From NCBI RefSeq assembly GCF_013415885.1, contig NZ_CP058910.1, positions 3,162,001 through 3,226,000 on the forward strand: 64,000 nt of DNA. Direction: 5' to 3'. The notes below the pieces were generated by a model. It saw only the letters and a list, made by a program, of their open reading frames with translations. It had not been told where the DNA came from and searched no databases. Positions 55,564 through 64,000 of the stretch are shown piece after piece. Position numbers and translations under genes: made by a program. The stretch is from Halosimplex rubrum (lineage in GTDB: Archaea; Halobacteriota; Halobacteria; Halobacteriales; Haloarculaceae). Positions within the stretch are counted from its first letter, which is position 1. Every line of letters begins with the position of its first letter.

Positions 55564-56028
55564 ATGGCGGAGTACGAACTCGACGAGATCGACCGGGAGA
55601 TCCTCGCCGCGCTGCAGGAGGACGCGCGCAACCTCTCTTCCGGCGAGATCGCCGAGCGAACCGACGCCTCGTCGAGCACGGTTCGAAAGCGCATCCAGCG
55701 ACTCGAATCCGCGGGGATCGTCAAGGGGTACAGCGCCGACGTGGACTACCAGAAGTCCGGGTACCCGCTCCGAATGTTGCTGTTCTGTACCGCTCCGATC
55801 CCCGAACGCGGCGAGCTCATCGACGACATCCTCGAGATCCCGAGCGTCGTGTCCGTCCAGGAACTGGTCACCGGCGAGCAGAACCTCCTCGTGACGGCCG
55901 TCGGCGAGTCCGACGACGACATCACGCCGGTGGCACAGGAACTGCTCGACATGGGGTTGACCGTCGCCGACGAGGTGCTCGTCCGCAGCCACGAGACGAC
56001 GCCGTTCGACGACTTCTCCTCGCAGTGA
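55564..56028 (+). CDS. Lrp/AsnC-family transcription regulator
   Basis: A 154-residue regulator. The N-terminal winged helix (LDEIDREILAALQEDARNLSSGEIAERTDASSSTVRKRIQRLESAGIVKGY) is followed by an AsnC-type ligand-binding domain (VDYQKSGYPLRMLLFCTAPI, DILEIPSVVSVQELVTGEQNLLVTAVGE). It probably responds to an amino acid or similar metabolite. Position before dabB may be coincidental, as there is a 480-base gap. Confidence 0.88.
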   Translation: MAEYELDEIDREILAALQEDARNLSSGEIAERTDASSSTVRKRIQRLESAGIVKGYSADVDYQKSGYPLRMLLFCTAPIPERGELIDDILEIPSVVSVQELVTGEQNLLVTAVGESDDDITPVAQELLDMGLTVADEVLVRSHETTPFDDFSSQ

Positions 56029-56509
56029 GCGCGACCGACGCGCCGCTCCCGGTCGGCGACCGCGGGCCGCCCCGCGGGACGGCCCGCCGGCGTCGGCACC
56101 GCACCGAACGAACGGTCGAACGGGAACGGCGATCGACGACCGGTTCGTCACGGATCGTTCGGGACCGCCCGTAGCGAATACCGAACTGTTCTCGACGGCG
56201 GAGACTCGCCCCGCCGTGCTCGCCCGTCTCCGACCCGTCCCGTGTCTCCCGCGGAAACAGACGAGATACCGCCCGAAACGCCCACAACCGACGGATCTCG
56301 GCGATCCGTTCCGAGCGGACCGACCGTCGACTGCCGCAATCTTTGCCGACCATAATGTTCTTTCATGCAGTGAATATCGAACGATTTGGTCGTACCGAAG
56401 ATTATAATAACCATATTGTTCTACAGTGGTGTACCGACGACCAGTTCGTGTGAGACTCGGCCCGGCTCCGACGCCGGGGCGGCGGGACGGTCTGGTCGGG
56501 GACCCGACG
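56029..56509. other. Regulatory gap before dabB
   Basis: No gene. The left part has a GC palindrome (GGGCCGCCCCGCGGGACGGCCC, about 56067-56088) that could end the Lrp transcript. The right part (56,340-56,425) is strongly AT-rich and contains TATAATAA, a likely dabB promoter. Confidence 0.6.
56402..56409 (+). promoter_or_regulatory. TATA box of dabB
   Basis: TTATAATAA-type box in a strongly AT-rich patch. A GTG at 56426 would be leaderless from here, but the ATG at 56510 gives a more natural protein start, so an untranslated leader of about 80 bases is possible. Confidence 0.5.
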
Positions 56510-57997
56510 ATGACGGACCAACCACAACCGAGCGAGGCCGTACAGCTCTCCGAAGCAGCGACGTCGCCGGACTCGGCCGTCCCGCGAGCGGCGACCCTCG
56601 CGGTCTGGACGCTGTTCCTGCTCGCCGCGGGCACACTCGCGCTGACGGTCGCCCGCGGCGCTGCGTGGGGACTGGCGGGCCTGTTCGTCGTCGACGGGCT
56701 GACCGCGGTCGTGTGGGTCGTGGTCACCTTCTTCAGCGGGATCGTCCACAGCTACTCCCGCCGTTACATGGCGGGGAACCGCTACCTCGACGGGTTCTAC
56801 GCCCGGATCTTCGCGTTCACGCTCGTCGTCATGACGATGACCGCGGCCGACCACGTCGCGCTGTTCGCCGGGGCGTGGCTGACGATGGGGCTCCTCATGG
56901 CGTCGCTCGTCGGCCACGAGCGCGACTGGCCCCAGGCGCGGGCCGCCGCCCGGACCGCCCGCCGGTACTTCCTGGCCAGCAGCGGACTGCTCGCCGTCGG
57001 CCTCGTGGCTCTCGTCTGGGCGACGGGCGCGACGTCCATCACGAGTATCCTCGGACAGGTCGAGACGGTCCCGCGGCCGGTCGCGCTCGTCGCCGTCGGC
57101 AGCGTCGTCCTCGCCGCGATGATCCAGTCGGCGCTGTTCCCGTTCCACACTTGGCTGCTGTCGTCGATGACCGCGCCCACCCCCGCCTCCGCGCTGATGC
57201 ACGCCGGGTTCGTCAACGCGGGCGGCATCCTGCTGACCCGCTTCGCGCCGCTGCTCGCCGACGAGCCGGTCGCCATGGCGCTTGTCGTCGCCGTCGGCGC
57301 GCTGAGCGCCGTGCTCGGGCAGGCGCTGTTGCTCGTCCAGACGGACATCAAGCGCAAACTCGGCGCCTCGACGATGGCCCAGATGGGGTTCATGATACTC
57401 CAGTGCGGTCTCGGCTTCTTCGCCGCCGCCATCGCTCACCTCGTCCTGCACGGCTTCTACAAGGCGTACCTGTTCCTGTCGTCGGGCGAGGCGGTCGAGC
57501 AGACGGCCCCGAAACGCGCGACCGACGACGGGCTGACCCTCCTCGGTGTCGCCGTCGGCCTGCTCACGGCGGTCGGCGGCGGCGCCCTGTTCGCCCTCCT
57601 CACCGGGAAGGGGACCGAAGTGAACAGCGGCCTCGTCCTGGCGCTGGTCGTCGTCCTGACGACCATGCACGCGACGCGCGACGTGCTCCGCCGGTCGACG
57701 CTCTCGCCGGTCGCGAAGCTCGTCAGCGTCCCCGTCGTCGTCCTGACGGCGATCGGCGCCTACGGCGTGCTGTTCAACGCCGTCTCGACGGTGATCGCCG
57801 GTGCGCCGATGGCGGCGGCGCCGACGGAACTGACCGTCGTCCACGTCGGCGTCGCCGCCCTGTTCGTCCTGTCGTACCTGGCGGCGGAACTCGGCTGGCA
57901 CCGCTCCAGCGACCGCCTCTACGTCGCGCTGCTGAACGCGTCGCAACCGGACCCGGACACCGTCCTCACCCGGACGGAGGACTACCATGACCCTTGA
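56510..57997 (+). CDS. dabB: DabB: NuoL-like proton channel subunit of inorganic-carbon transporter
   Basis: A 495-residue integral membrane protein of the NuoL/MrpA/DabB type with about 14 helices. The core motifs are HSYSRRYMAGNRYLDGFYARIFAFTLVVM, FPFHTWLLSSMTAPTPASALMHAGFVNAGGILL, and DIKRKLGASTMAQMGFM, with the Lys residues used for proton movement. It overlaps the dabA start by 11 bases. In bacteria, DabB couples ion flux to CO2 hydration by DabA. ATG at 56510 chosen; a GTG at 56426 adds an unlikely basic extension. Confidence 0.85.
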   Translation: MTDQPQPSEAVQLSEAATSPDSAVPRAATLAVWTLFLLAAGTLALTVARGAAWGLAGLFVVDGLTAVVWVVVTFFSGIVHSYSRRYMAGNRYLDGFYARIFAFTLVVMTMTAADHVALFAGAWLTMGLLMASLVGHERDWPQARAAARTARRYFLASSGLLAVGLVALVWATGATSITSILGQVETVPRPVALVAVGSVVLAAMIQSALFPFHTWLLSSMTAPTPASALMHAGFVNAGGILLTRFAPLLADEPVAMALVVAVGALSAVLGQALLLVQTDIKRKLGASTMAQMGFMILQCGLGFFAAAIAHLVLHGFYKAYLFLSSGEAVEQTAPKRATDDGLTLLGVAVGLLTAVGGGALFALLTGKGTEVNSGLVLALVVVLTTMHATRDVLRRSTLSPVAKLVSVPVVVLTAIGAYGVLFNAVSTVIAGAPMAAAPTELTVVHVGVAALFVLSYLAAELGWHRSSDRLYVALLNASQPDPDTVLTRTEDYHDP

Positions 57998-60389
57998 GAG
58001 AGACACCCTGGAAGACAGCATCGACCGCGCGGCCGAGACCGTCGGCTCGGTCTGGCCGCTGCACTCCTTCGTCACGGCCAACCCCCTCGCGGGGTTCGAG
58101 GACCGGCCGTTCCACCGCGCGGTCGCCGACGCCGAGGAGCTGTTCGGCGGCCGCGGCTACCCGCACCCATCGGTGTTCCGACGGGCCTGGGAGCGCGGCC
58201 GGATCGACCCGGACGCGCTCCGCGAGGCGCTCGACGACCACGGCGTCGGCGGCGAACCCGATGCGCTGCTCGACGAGATGGCGGCCGCCGAGTCCGAGTC
58301 CGAGCGCGGGACCGGGGCCGACGCCGCGACGGAGACGGTCGACCGCGTGCTGTCGAAGTGGCTCGCCGCCTTCCTCGACCAGGGCCAGGCCGAGTGGTCG
58401 ATGCCGAACCGCGACCGGGGCTTCTACGCCGCCTGGCGCGACCTCGCCCCCTACGACGACGAGGTCCCCGGGTGCGACGACCCGTCGGACATCCCCGAGT
58501 CGCCGGTCGAAGCGCTGGAGGCCGCCCTCTCCGCGTACCCGGAGGGACAGTGGGAGAGCATCTTCGAGCGCCACCTCGCCGCCCTGCCGGGCTGGACGGG
58601 CTTCGTCAAGCAGCGGGCCGACGGCCACGCCGGGCCCTGGCAGTCGAAGTACCCGGTCTCGCTCCTCGACTATCTCGCGGTGCGGCTGACGCTGGTCGAC
58701 CTGCTGGACGCGCCCGTCGAACCCGACGGCGCCGACCGGGAGGCGGCCGACGACTGCGACGAGGTACCGCTGGCCGAGGTCTGGCTGACCGCCTGGGAGA
58801 GGAGCCACCGCGCCCGCCTGCTCGACGGCATCGACCGGTCGGTGGCGGAGCCGTCGGCCGACGGCGACGAGCGCCCGGCCGCCCAGCTCGTCTTCTGTAT
58901 CGACACCCGCTCGGAGGTCGTCCGCCGTCACGTCGAGGCGACCGGCCCGTACGAGACCCACGGCTACGCGGGCTTTTTCGGCGTTCCCATGCGCTACCAG
59001 GGGTACGATTCGAAGGTGGAGATCGACGCCTGCCCGCCGGTCGTCGACCCGAAACACCGCGTCGCCGAACGCCCCCAACCCGACCGCCGTGAGCGGAAGG
59101 CGGCCCACGACCGGTGGACGAAGCTCGCGGCGGCCGGCCGGAAGCACCTCAAGTCGCTCAAGACCAACGTGGCCGCCGCGTTCACCTTCGTGGAGGGCGG
59201 CGGGAGCGCCTACGGCGCGGCGATGGCCGCCCGGACCCTGCTGCCGTCGGCCGTCGCCGACCTTTCCGACGCCGTCGACGAGCGCGTCCCGTCGCAGGCG
59301 GAGTTCTGCGAGCCCGCGCTCGACCGTCCCGTCGACGGGGACGCCGAGGGTGACCTCCCGCGGGGGATGACCGTCGAAGAGAAGGCCGGCTACGCGGAGA
59401 CGGCCTTCGAGCTGATGGGCTGGGAGGAGTTCGCCCGGCTGGTCGTCTTCGCGGGCCACGCGAGCGAGACGACGAACAACCCGTTCGATTCGAGCCTCGA
59501 CTGCGGCGCCTGCGCCGGCAACCCCGGCGGCCCGAACGCCCGCGTGCTCGCCGCGATCTGCAACGACGCGGAAGTCAAGCGCGAACTCCGCGAGCGCGGG
59601 TTCGAGATCCCGGACGACACCGTCTTCCTCGCCGGCGAGCACAACACTACCACCGACGAGATCGAGCTGTTCGACGCTCACGTCCCCGAGAGCCACCGCG
59701 CGGACCTCGAACGCCTCCGCTCGGACCTCGAAGAGGCGCGGGCCGGCGCCGCGGCCGAATGCGCCGAGTCGATGCCCGGGAGCGACCCCGACGACGGCGT
59801 CCGCGAGGCCAAACGCCGGACGGCCGACTGGGCGGAGACCCGCCCCGAGTGGGGGCTGGCCGGCAACGCGTCGTTCGTCATCGGGCCGCGCGAGCTGACC
59901 GAGGGCCGGGACCTCGACGGGCGGGCCTTCCTCCACTCCTACGACTGGACGACCGACCCCGACGGGGACGCCCTGGAGGCGATCGTGACGGGGCCGCTCG
60001 TGGTCACCCAGTGGATCAACAGCCAGTACTACTTCGCGACGGTGGACAACGCCGTCTACGGGAGCGGCTCGAAGGTCACGCAGAACCCCCGCGGCAACGT
60101 CGGCGTCGTGCAGGGCAACGGCGGCGACCTGATGACCGGGCTCCCCCTCCAGTCGCTCAAGGTGGCCGACGACCGGCCGTACCACCAGCCGCTCCGGCTC
60201 ACGGCGGTGATCCACGCGCCGGTCGAACGCGTCACCGACGTCCTCGCCCGCCACGAGGAGGTCGCGAGGCTGTTCGACAACGGCTGGGTCTCGCTCACGG
60301 TCGTGGACCCGGAGCAGGACGACGCGGCCGTCCACTACCAGGGCGACCTGGAGTGGGAACCGCGGCCGGCGAAGCCGCTCGCCCACTGA
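57987..60389 (+). CDS. dabA: DabA: carbonic-anhydrase-like subunit (DUF2309)
   Basis: An 800-residue DUF2309 protein. The zinc-binding residues of the family are present: Cys304 and Asp306 (VFCIDTRSE), His491 (VVFAGHASETTNNPF) and Cys506 (SLDCGACAGNPGGP). The spacing His to Cys is 15 residues, as in the known DabA of Halothiobacillus (His524, Cys539). The N-terminal motif PLHSFVTANPLAGFED is also typical. With DabB it should form an energised vectorial CO2 hydratase that builds up cytoplasmic bicarbonate. All key residues are intact. Confidence 0.9.
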   Translation: MTLERDTLEDSIDRAAETVGSVWPLHSFVTANPLAGFEDRPFHRAVADAEELFGGRGYPHPSVFRRAWERGRIDPDALREALDDHGVGGEPDALLDEMAAAESESERGTGADAATETVDRVLSKWLAAFLDQGQAEWSMPNRDRGFYAAWRDLAPYDDEVPGCDDPSDIPESPVEALEAALSAYPEGQWESIFERHLAALPGWTGFVKQRADGHAGPWQSKYPVSLLDYLAVRLTLVDLLDAPVEPDGADREAADDCDEVPLAEVWLTAWERSHRARLLDGIDRSVAEPSADGDERPAAQLVFCIDTRSEVVRRHVEATGPYETHGYAGFFGVPMRYQGYDSKVEIDACPPVVDPKHRVAERPQPDRRERKAAHDRWTKLAAAGRKHLKSLKTNVAAAFTFVEGGGSAYGAAMAARTLLPSAVADLSDAVDERVPSQAEFCEPALDRPVDGDAEGDLPRGMTVEEKAGYAETAFELMGWEEFARLVVFAGHASETTNNPFDSSLDCGACAGNPGGPNARVLAAICNDAEVKRELRERGFEIPDDTVFLAGEHNTTTDEIELFDAHVPESHRADLERLRSDLEEARAGAAAECAESMPGSDPDDGVREAKRRTADWAETRPEWGLAGNASFVIGPRELTEGRDLDGRAFLHSYDWTTDPDGDALEAIVTGPLVVTQWINSQYYFATVDNAVYGSGSKVTQNPRGNVGVVQGNGGDLMTGLPLQSLKVADDRPYHQPLRLTAVIHAPVERVTDVLARHEEVARLFDNGWVSLTVVDPEQDDAAVHYQGDLEWEPRPAKPLAH

Positions 60390-60403
60390 GAGGCTCGCGA
60401 CGG

Positions 60404-60430
60404 CCGGCCGCGGAGCGCGTCCGCGGCCGG
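60404..60430. terminator. Hairpin between convergent dabA and carbonic anhydrase genes
   Basis: Perfect 11-bp stem CCGGCCGCGGA/TCCGCGGCCGG with a five-base loop. It has no T run, so it may act as a bidirectional stem-loop terminator or transcript stabiliser. Confidence 0.5.
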
Positions 60431-60431
60431 G

Positions 60432-61112
60432 TCAGTACTCCCAGATCCGGTCGATCCGGTCTTCGACCTCGGGGTGGTCGTCGCGGAGCGCGTCGACGCG
60501 CCGCTCGCCGTCGACGTTGACCACGTGGATCTCGCCGCGCTCGCCGCCGTAGACGTCCTGGAAGTCGTAGACCGCACCGACCACGTCGACGCTCTCGGGG
60601 ACTCGCTCGCTGTCGACGAGGGATTCGACCTGCTGGTCGACGTTGAACTCGACGAGGCGGTCGACCGCCCTCGCCGCGTCGAGCCCGTCGGGCAGCGCCG
60701 CCACGCCGGCTTCGAGGTGGGGCGCCAGCAGGCTCAGGCAGTGTTCGATCCCGTCCGGTTCGGTCTGGTCGTCGGCGAGCGCCCGGTAGGTCCCGGTCAC
60801 GGCGCCGCAGCCGGTGTGGCCGACGACGACGGCGGTCTCGGTGCCGGTGTGGGCGATCGGGTAGAGCACGTCGTCGGAGACCTCCTCGCCGTCCTCTCCC
60901 CGCTGGACGACGCGGTTGCCGATGTTGCCGACGGTGAAGAGGTGACCCGGCTGTTCGTTGCCCCACATCCGGTCCTGGAGCACCCGCGAGTCCGAACAGC
61001 AGACGGTGACCGCCGCCGGGTGCTGAGTGTCCTGTACGTCGTCGAAGCGGTCAGCGAACTGTTCGGCGTGACGGGCGTTCCCCGCCAGCAGGTCGACGAC
61101 CGTCCCGTTCAT
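60432..61112 (-). CDS. Beta-class carbonic anhydrase
   Basis: A 226-residue beta-carbonic anhydrase. Zinc and catalytic residues: Cys39, Asp41, Arg43 in VCCSDSRVL, and His99, Cys102 in VVGHTGCGAV. A cytoplasmic enzyme interconverting CO2 and bicarbonate. It faces dabA convergently and is only 42 bases away, which makes a functional link with the DabAB bicarbonate pump likely. ATG at 61112 selected; upstream extension is Arg-rich. Confidence 0.92.
   Translation of the reverse strand: MNGTVVDLLAGNARHAEQFADRFDDVQDTQHPAAVTVCCSDSRVLQDRMWGNEQPGHLFTVGNIGNRVVQRGEDGEEVSDDVLYPIAHTGTETAVVVGHTGCGAVTGTYRALADDQTEPDGIEHCLSLLAPHLEAGVAALPDGLDAARAVDRLVEFNVDQQVESLVDSERVPESVDVVGAVYDFQDVYGGERGEIHVVNVDGERRVDALRDDHPEVEDRIDRIWEY

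Positions 61113-61518: not shown

Positions 61519-61530
<12 letters not shown>
61273..61530 (-). ncRNA. Predicted omega-RNA (right-end RNA) of TnpB
   Basis: The stretch from the 3' end of tnpB to the element's right end should encode the guide RNA used by TnpB, by analogy with characterised IS200/IS605 elements. The last bases lie next to the host sequence GGCACCGGGCTCG (minus strand), which would be the guide. The sequence shows GC-rich paired segments near the end (CGCCC...GGGCG). Boundaries are inferred. Confidence 0.45.
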
Positions 61531-62568
<1,038 letters not shown>

Positions 62569-62649: not shown

Positions 62650-62690
<41 letters not shown>

Positions 62691-63206
62691 TGCACTTCCG
62701 TAACGAGCCGACGACGCCAGCGAGCCGTGTTCGGCCTCGATGCGCTCGACCTCCGCGCTGTCGGGCGTGACGACGCTCCCGCTCAGGTCGCACTCCAGCG
62801 CGTGTTCGATGGCCGTCGCGTCGACGACCGTCGGCACCGCGACCCGGTCGACGATCTCCCGCACGGCCTTCGGCGTGGGCGTCTCCAGGCCCGGCCCGAC
62901 GACGAGCGCGTCGCTCCACTCGGCGACCGCCAGCACCTTCCCGACGGAGTCGGGCCTGAGCACGTCCGTCCCCGTCCGCAGCGCCGCGAGCCCGGACAGC
63001 GCCGGCGGGCCCGCGAACTCGATGCTCCCGCCGACGACCCCGACGCGCCCGCTGTCGCCTTTCTCCGAGTCGTCACCGTCGGCCAGCTCCGCGAGGAGTT
63101 CCTCCATGCCTCCGGTCGCGTCCGCCGCCCCAACAGCCCCCTGCCGGCACACGACGGCCCCGCCGTCCCGGTCGGGAACTCGGTCCGGTCCCGCGCGCTC
63201 GCACCC

Positions 63207-64000
63207 TCAACCGCGGTTGTCCTCGAACCACTCGACGGCGAAGTCGACGAGCGCGGGCTGGTCGACCAGCCGCGCGTCGGCGGCGCCGACGGTCCCGCGC
63301 TCGACGGCCCCGGGAACCCCCTCCTCGAAGGCCGCGCCCAGTTCCTCGAAGTCCGACGTGTCGGTCTCGATGTCCTCGTACTCGACGCGGACGCGCTCGC
63401 CGTCGTCGAGCACGGGGGCGTCGTTTGTCGTCCGCGCTTTCGGGAAGTCGGCGCGGTACTCCGCGAGGTGGATCGAGGTGTTGGTGTCGTACCCGGTGCC
63501 GAGCAGCAAGACGCGCCCGTCGCGGTCGTAGACCTCCGCCAGCGGCGATTTCTCGCCCAGTCCCTCGTCGTAGGCGTGGTCGGCGACGACCGCCTCGGCC
63601 CCCGCGCCCCGGGCGGCGAAGGAGACGGTCGGGTGGCGGCTCCTGACGGTGTCGGGATAGCCGCGGAAGCACTCGGCGACCGCGCCCATCCCGCGGGTCG
63701 GCGTGCTCTCCGGCCGGAACGGCGGTCGCTCGGCGCGGACCGTCTCGACCCAGTCGTCGGGGACGGGCGGGTTCGACCACATCTCGGGGTCGGTGTACTG
63801 ACCGGTGTGGGCCGGCATCACGAGCGTTCCCGTGTCCGTGACGGCCTCCCGGAGCGCGTCGACGACCGCCTGCGCGTCGCCGCAGACCCAGCCGAGCGCC
63901 GAGAGCGACGAGTGGACGAGGAGGGTGTCGCCCGGACGGACACCGAGCCCGCGGAGGTCGTCGGTCAGCGTCTCCGTCGTGGCGGGCTCGTCGACCCGGT
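63207..64000 (-). CDS. Aminoglycoside 3-N-acetyltransferase-like protein (partial, 5' end off window)
   Basis: The visible 263 residues match the AAC(3) family: LGVRPGDTLLVHSSLSALGWVCGDAQAVVDALREAV near the N-terminus, VMPAHTGQYTDPEMWSNPPVPDDW, ESTPTRGMGAVAECFRGYPDTVRSRHPTVSFAARG (with the HPT active-site region) and LLLGTGYDTNTSIHLAEYR. The family acetylates aminoglycosides, but many archaeal members act on other amines. The start codon lies beyond base 64000. It ends 100 bases before the nnrD remnant on the same strand. Confidence 0.85.
   Translation of the reverse strand, partial: RVDEPATTETLTDDLRGLGVRPGDTLLVHSSLSALGWVCGDAQAVVDALREAVTDTGTLVMPAHTGQYTDPEMWSNPPVPDDWVETVRAERPPFRPESTPTRGMGAVAECFRGYPDTVRSRHPTVSFAARGAGAEAVVADHAYDEGLGEKSPLAEVYDRDGRVLLLGTGYDTNTSIHLAEYRADFPKARTTNDAPVLDDGERVRVEYEDIETDTSDFEELGAAFEEGVPGAVERGTVGAADARLVDQPALVDFAVEWFEDNRG

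Follow-up and report, generated by a model that had tools for sequence, protein, structure and literature searches.

A predicted DabAB inorganic-carbon pump with a linked Lrp-type regulator and a convergent beta-carbonic anhydrase in the haloarchaeon Halosimplex rubrum

The DabAB and MpsAB complexes represent the closest described counterparts of the locus reported here. In the DAB2 complex of Halothiobacillus neapolitanus, mutants of the zinc site, the Asp-Arg dyad, the finger and the proton path grow poorly in a CO2-limited complementation assay (Lo et al., PMC13144422). A carbonic anhydrase (CA) gene beside mpsAB/dabAB is already known from Bacillus and Staphylococcus sciuri; in B. subtilis, B. 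anthracis and S. sciuri it lies downstream of mpsAB (PMC8552792). In haloarchaea, a COG3002/COG1009 complex was noted in 2017, its function being then unknown (COGNAT, PMC5700660), and a dabAB prediction for Haloferax volcanii, HVO_2410/HVO_2411, followed in 2021 (PMC8305020). A biochemical or genetic test of DabAB was found in the literature for no archaeon.

Here, we describe a member of this family in Halosimplex rubrum. The window is the whole stretch of DNA that was analysed, i.e., 64,000 nucleotides of contig NZ_CP058910.1 (positions 3,162,001 to 3,226,000, forward strand), and the host genome consists of one contig of 4.48 Mb. Its features are collected in Table 1. The gene arrangement given in an initial annotation was confirmed, with dabB and dabA overlapping by 11 nt and a complete beta-CA gene lying convergent with dabA, 42 nt after the dabA stop; the linked Lrp-type regulator had not been named there. 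An alternative upstream start of dabB, GTG 56426, gives a numbering of 523 aa. The closest public relatives are Halosimplex species, the DabA of H. pelagicum being 86% identical.

Table 1. Features of the dab locus and its neighbourhood (positions in the window)
Feature	Position	Strand	Description	Evidence
Lrp/AsnC-type transcriptional regulator gene	55564..56028	+	154 aa from ATG; GTG 55540 possible	HTH_24/HTH_AsnC
Candidate dabB promoter core, TATAATAACCATATTGTTC	56403..56421	+	TATA box and TGTTC half-site	conserved in aligned Halosimplex loci
dabB	56510..57997	+	495 aa from ATG 56510; membrane proton-conducting subunit (predicted)	PF00361/PF00662
dabA	57987..60389	+	800 aa; cytoplasmic beta-CA-like zinc subunit (predicted)	PF10070
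beta-carbonic anhydrase	60432..61112	-	226 aa from ATG	PF00484, 94.3 bits
TnpB-family gene	61519..62568	-	between CA and next gene	guided_TnpB, 155 bits
ORF	62658..63152	-	presumably corresponds to the C-terminal portion of an NAD(P)H-hydrate dehydratase; possibly truncated	79% and 51% identical stretches in loci L033 and L034
Aminoglycoside 3-N-acetyltransferase family gene	63207..63998	-	runs off the window end	PF02522, 305 bits

In our view, lrp-dabB-dabA very probably encodes a pump that is driven by the proton motive force, converts CO2 to bicarbonate and feeds the carboxylases of a heterotroph, with the CA as a passive and partly interchangeable partner. This view rests on gene content, residue conservation, phyletic pattern and the missing cassette of a relative, and its proton coupling, direction, regulation and physiological role are taken from homology. 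The three genes would form a transferable or losable unit for a DabAB/MpsAB-family complex, in which DabB would conduct protons down the membrane gradient. DabA would be a beta-CA-like subunit with a buried Cys2His zinc and a helical finger reaching into DabB, acting as a vectorial carbonic anhydrase whose hydration of CO2 to bicarbonate runs one way only. Its product would be used by PEP carboxylase (PEPC), carbamoyl-phosphate synthase (CPS) and a biotin-dependent carboxylase, not by RuBisCO. Additionally, the upstream Lrp-type protein would most likely regulate dabBA, and the convergent beta-CA may provide a second, passive source of the same bicarbonate that could partly stand in for DabAB.

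The identity of DabA is well defined. The Pfam profile PF10070 covers it at full length (903.6 bits, profile positions 1-747 of 747), and within the PDB sequence set it matches DabA2 of H. neapolitanus alone (9rd0_A, E 5.6e-115). Alignment to this solved structure places Cys304, Asp306, His491 and Cys506 on the zinc-site residues Cys351, Asp353, His524 and Cys539; all four residues named in the initial annotation thus match, and no Cys, His or Asp is misplaced relative to the site. Arg308 corresponds to Arg355, forming the dyad D306/R308, and the finger Glu403 to Glu444. Among the ten DabA2 residues compared for their part in zinc binding, the active site or the finger (C351, D353, R355, S356, E444, H524, C539, H585, D590 and L658), all are identical in the window; the matches extend to the water relay and to the Leu found where CAs usually have Gln/His. 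Furthermore, Cys304, Asp306, Arg308, Glu403, His491 and Cys506 do not vary among 81 haloarchaeal DabA sequences, and the other residues checked in these, like the proton-path residues in 78 DabB sequences, are nearly all invariant as well. An AlphaFold2 model of DabA built from 23 sequences reached a mean pLDDT of 69.1, falling below 50 near the second zinc cysteine and the finger; with this model, too weak at the active site, Foldseek gave no PDB match under E 0.001.

DabB has DabB2 (9rd0_B) as its top match among solved structures in the PDB sequence set, with every complex I subunit ranking lower. That it might instead be an ordinary complex I or Mrp antiporter subunit, mis-called as DabB, is scarcely credible: it does score on nuoL/mrp models, yet each score shown falls short of the curated cut-off, while dabA overlaps it, DabB2 is the best structural match and dabB adjoins dabA in nearly all loci inspected. 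In the 523-aa numbering, S255, H259, K309, S315, H338, H342 and K346 reproduce all seven proton-path residues of DabB2 (S256, H260, K310, S316, H339, H343 and K347). By contrast, the DabB2 ion-pair residues Lys235, Asp185 and Arg182 are replaced by Gln, Ser and Leu. Gln stands at the K235 position in 77 of the 78 haloarchaeal DabB sequences, whereas bacterial DabB proteins, in the few sequences compared, mostly carry K/R and D/E at these positions. In DAB2, Ala mutants of the ion pairs still complement with a yield lowered by 30-60%, and the residues are not essential (PMC13144422). Since the ion pairs are dispensable there, their loss in haloarchaea is best read as a variant and not as a broken pump, although coupling could, to judge from the residues, differ in detail from DAB2. 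No paper on this loss was found in a literature search that was poor in subscription journals, and in the comparison made here it is new.

The lost ion pairs, which modulate proton transfer in DAB2, also bear on another reading, namely that haloarchaeal DabAB is a sodium-coupled transporter importing bicarbonate with Na+ and performing no proton-driven CO2 hydration. Published work describes MpsAB of Staphylococcus as transporting bicarbonate (PMC8552792), a sodium-gradient argument is cited in PMC13144422, and haloarchaea inhabit molar Na+. However, DAB2 is proton-coupled and its zinc-site and proton-path residues are all retained here, and it appears neither to need nor to move Na+ (PMC13144422). 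Sodium coupling is considered unlikely.

The Lrp-type protein encoded upstream of dabB is matched by HTH profiles, and this divergent member has no Pfam match for the C-terminal RAM domain. Of 80 public haloarchaeal loci inspected, almost every one has an lrp gene upstream of dabB; at the dab locus of Haloarcula hispanica pHH400 it is annotated as a winged-HTH regulator. Across 391 sampled Halobacteria genomes, a strong Lrp match was found in 234 of the 239 genomes with DabA, compared to one of the 152 without it, and the best-match E values are bimodal class-wide (1e-69 or better, versus 1e-52 and worse). Among the five exceptions, two genomes have partial Lrp matches (G285 and G205, 78-79% identity), one has its dabA close to a contig start (G195) and one has only weak dabA matches (G272). 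Moreover, the same-genus genome G274 keeps sdpI and the CA gene, with matches 178 nt apart, and lacks exactly lrp, dabB and dabA. Its neighbourhood is otherwise that of the window, with shikimate kinase-like, chorismate mutase-like, sdpI, CA and aac3-like genes. As two apparently more distant relatives (L034 and L036) carry lrp-dabB-dabA at the same site, the simpler explanation is that G274 lost the three genes cleanly. The near-perfect co-occurrence of Lrp and DabA, together with this exact three-gene absence, defines lrp-dabBA as the unit, and the Lrp-type protein is most likely a dedicated regulator of dabBA, as far as sequence can tell. The same search, with its poor coverage of subscription journals, gave no paper on the Lrp-DabA link, which is new in the present comparison.

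Among 75 haloarchaeal intergenic regions between lrp and dabB, 47 have a core of the same type as the candidate dabB promoter, by a pattern that was chosen by eye after inspection and serves as a lead. The exact palindrome CGAAC-N5-GTTCG is present in 15 of the 75 loci (12 of the 46 shorter ones, versus 0.17 in shuffles); it is likewise only a lead because the window lacks it and the loci are related. Separately, genome G129, with neither DabA nor beta-CA, has a dab-type Lrp that is 71% identical (L140 6623-7087, C1). This gene is convergent with a CooC-like ATPase gene and a prismane/CO-dehydrogenase-family gene, with Usp and MFS genes upstream. The idea that it guards another bicarbonate transporter is unsupported by these MFS, Usp, CooC-like ATPase and CODH-family neighbours.

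DabA is widely spread in Halobacteria, being present in those 239 genomes (61%) and in 55 of 86 genera. With this distribution and the publications of 2017 and 2021, the surprise implied by the initial annotation does not hold. DabAB is known from chemolithoautotrophs (PMC13144422), and about a third of the sampled Halobacteria have a RuBisCO large-subunit match, which would suit an autotrophic CO2-concentrating mechanism feeding RuBisCO. Nevertheless, no RuBisCO was found in the host genome and DabA shows no association with RuBisCO across the 391 genomes (p 0.39), making such a mechanism very improbable. The host genome has PEPC, CPS and a biotin carboxylase-type gene, and these enzymes are plausible users of bicarbonate. 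Hence, the suggestion in the initial annotation that DabAB supplies bicarbonate for carboxylation in a heterotroph is favoured by the retained residues, the absence of RuBisCO and the presence of these three genes, while its other suggestion, pH/CO2 control in brine, gained no specific evidence.

A beta-CA was found in 351 of the 391 genomes. Both proteins occur in 203 genomes, DabA only in 36, CA only in 148 and neither in 4. DabA is therefore present in 36 of 40 CA-less genomes compared to 203 of 351 genomes with CA (Fisher p 2.9e-5). Within CA-variable genera, 27 CA-less genomes with DabA were seen against 22.4 expected (one-sided p 0.0037), relatedness being partly controlled; the genome and genus lists of the cross-table were transcribed by hand and their totals match the tallies. 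Such an excess is expected if either system can supply bicarbonate, and DabAB and CA look partly interchangeable. DabA clades also mix families, with Halorientalis, Halorubrum and Natronomonas placed together in the DabA tree (L058, L062, L065 and L110), and several haloarchaeal dabA copies are plasmid-borne. Frequent transfer of DabA within Halobacteria is likely. A contig labelled as an uncultured proteobacterium MAG (L112) encodes a haloarchaeal-type DabAB, with DabA at 54% identity and Gln at the K235 position, representing either mis-binning or transfer.

The CA of the window, which matches 29 solved CA sequences in the PDB sequence set, is the one full-length beta-CA that the host genome yielded. 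By alignment it carries the motif C39-x-D41-x-R43 with H99xxC102 and Gln30, i.e., the zinc motif CxDxR...HxxC plus the Gln of the Gln/His transition-state position. A context search for dabAB with beta-CA in Halobacteria, as proposed in the initial annotation, placed a CA gene no more than 2 kb from dabA in 22 of 80 dab loci, compared to about 0.2 expected, in convergent, co-directional and upstream arrangements. The DabA tree requires several origins for this pairing, and outside the closest relatives the paired CA proteins are mostly 31-51% identical to that of the window. The pairing is non-random and repeated; that it is special to the genus of the window is ruled out by the 22 loci and their several places in the tree.

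These far-above-chance pairings in several orientations could also fit a role in CO2/pH homeostasis, in which CA equilibrates CO2 and bicarbonate and DabAB traps respired CO2, supplying no carboxylase. A cytosolic CA beside a pure accumulation pump is indeed puzzling, as it should leak pumped bicarbonate back as CO2, and this counts against the carboxylase-supply reading. Having both CA and MpsAB is argued to waste bicarbonate, and their co-expression in Staphylococcus gave no benefit (PMC8552792). Against homeostasis, CA and DabA are in part mutually exclusive, which indicates that they share a role in supply, and genomes with DabA only occur in many genera; we regard this reading as quite unlikely. 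Haloarchaea possibly keep both systems owing to different regulation or a salt-limited CO2 supply.

Beyond the CA, the aminoglycoside 3-N-acetyltransferase family gene is kept nearby in Halosimplex, and the Halosimplex relatives compared show no TnpB match where the window has its TnpB-family gene.

Chance cannot explain the observed locus and residue matches. The locus is a genuine, ordinary member of the DabAB pump family that adds modest new comparative facts. A bolder proposal, which we put forward tentatively and would not yet bet on, is that haloarchaeal DabAB forms a distinct subtype with its own inorganic-carbon-responsive Lrp, no DabB ion pairs and a differing coupling ion or gating, in which lrp-dabBA and CA are interchangeable and have been repeatedly gained, lost and paired. 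The findings make bicarbonate supply in heterotrophic archaea testable, Haloferax being genetically tractable and carrying the same haloarchaeal DabAB family. Furthermore, the almost perfect association of Lrp with DabA points to a candidate regulator with a possible response to inorganic carbon, and the haloarchaeal DabB, in which three ion-pair residues have naturally been lost, provides a ready-made variant for studying proton coupling in this pump family.

Compared to known systems, the locus shares with DAB2 (9rd0, PMC13144422) the pairing of DabA with DabB, the Cys2His zinc site with its Asp-Arg dyad, a Leu where CAs have Gln/His, the finger Glu and the whole proton path. It differs in the Q/S/L found in haloarchaea for K235/D185/R182, in a host genome without RuBisCO, and in its regulator, which is of Lrp type in haloarchaea and of LysR type beside bacterial dab genes in three of the plasmid loci inspected. 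The COG3002/COG1009 complex of haloarchaea is the same operon class as dabBA of the window, and HVO_2410/HVO_2411 of H. volcanii is a member of the haloarchaeal DabAB family found here. Two further Haloferax species (L060 and L066) have lrp upstream of dabAB and CA downstream; as this CA is co-directional and shares only 36-37% identity with that of the window, the pairing there probably arose separately. MpsAB of Staphylococcus and Bacillus likewise concerns inorganic-carbon supply in heterotrophs having either system or both, in some with an adjacent beta-CA, and differs in that Na+ coupling is argued and an Lrp-type regulator is not reported there (PMC8552792).
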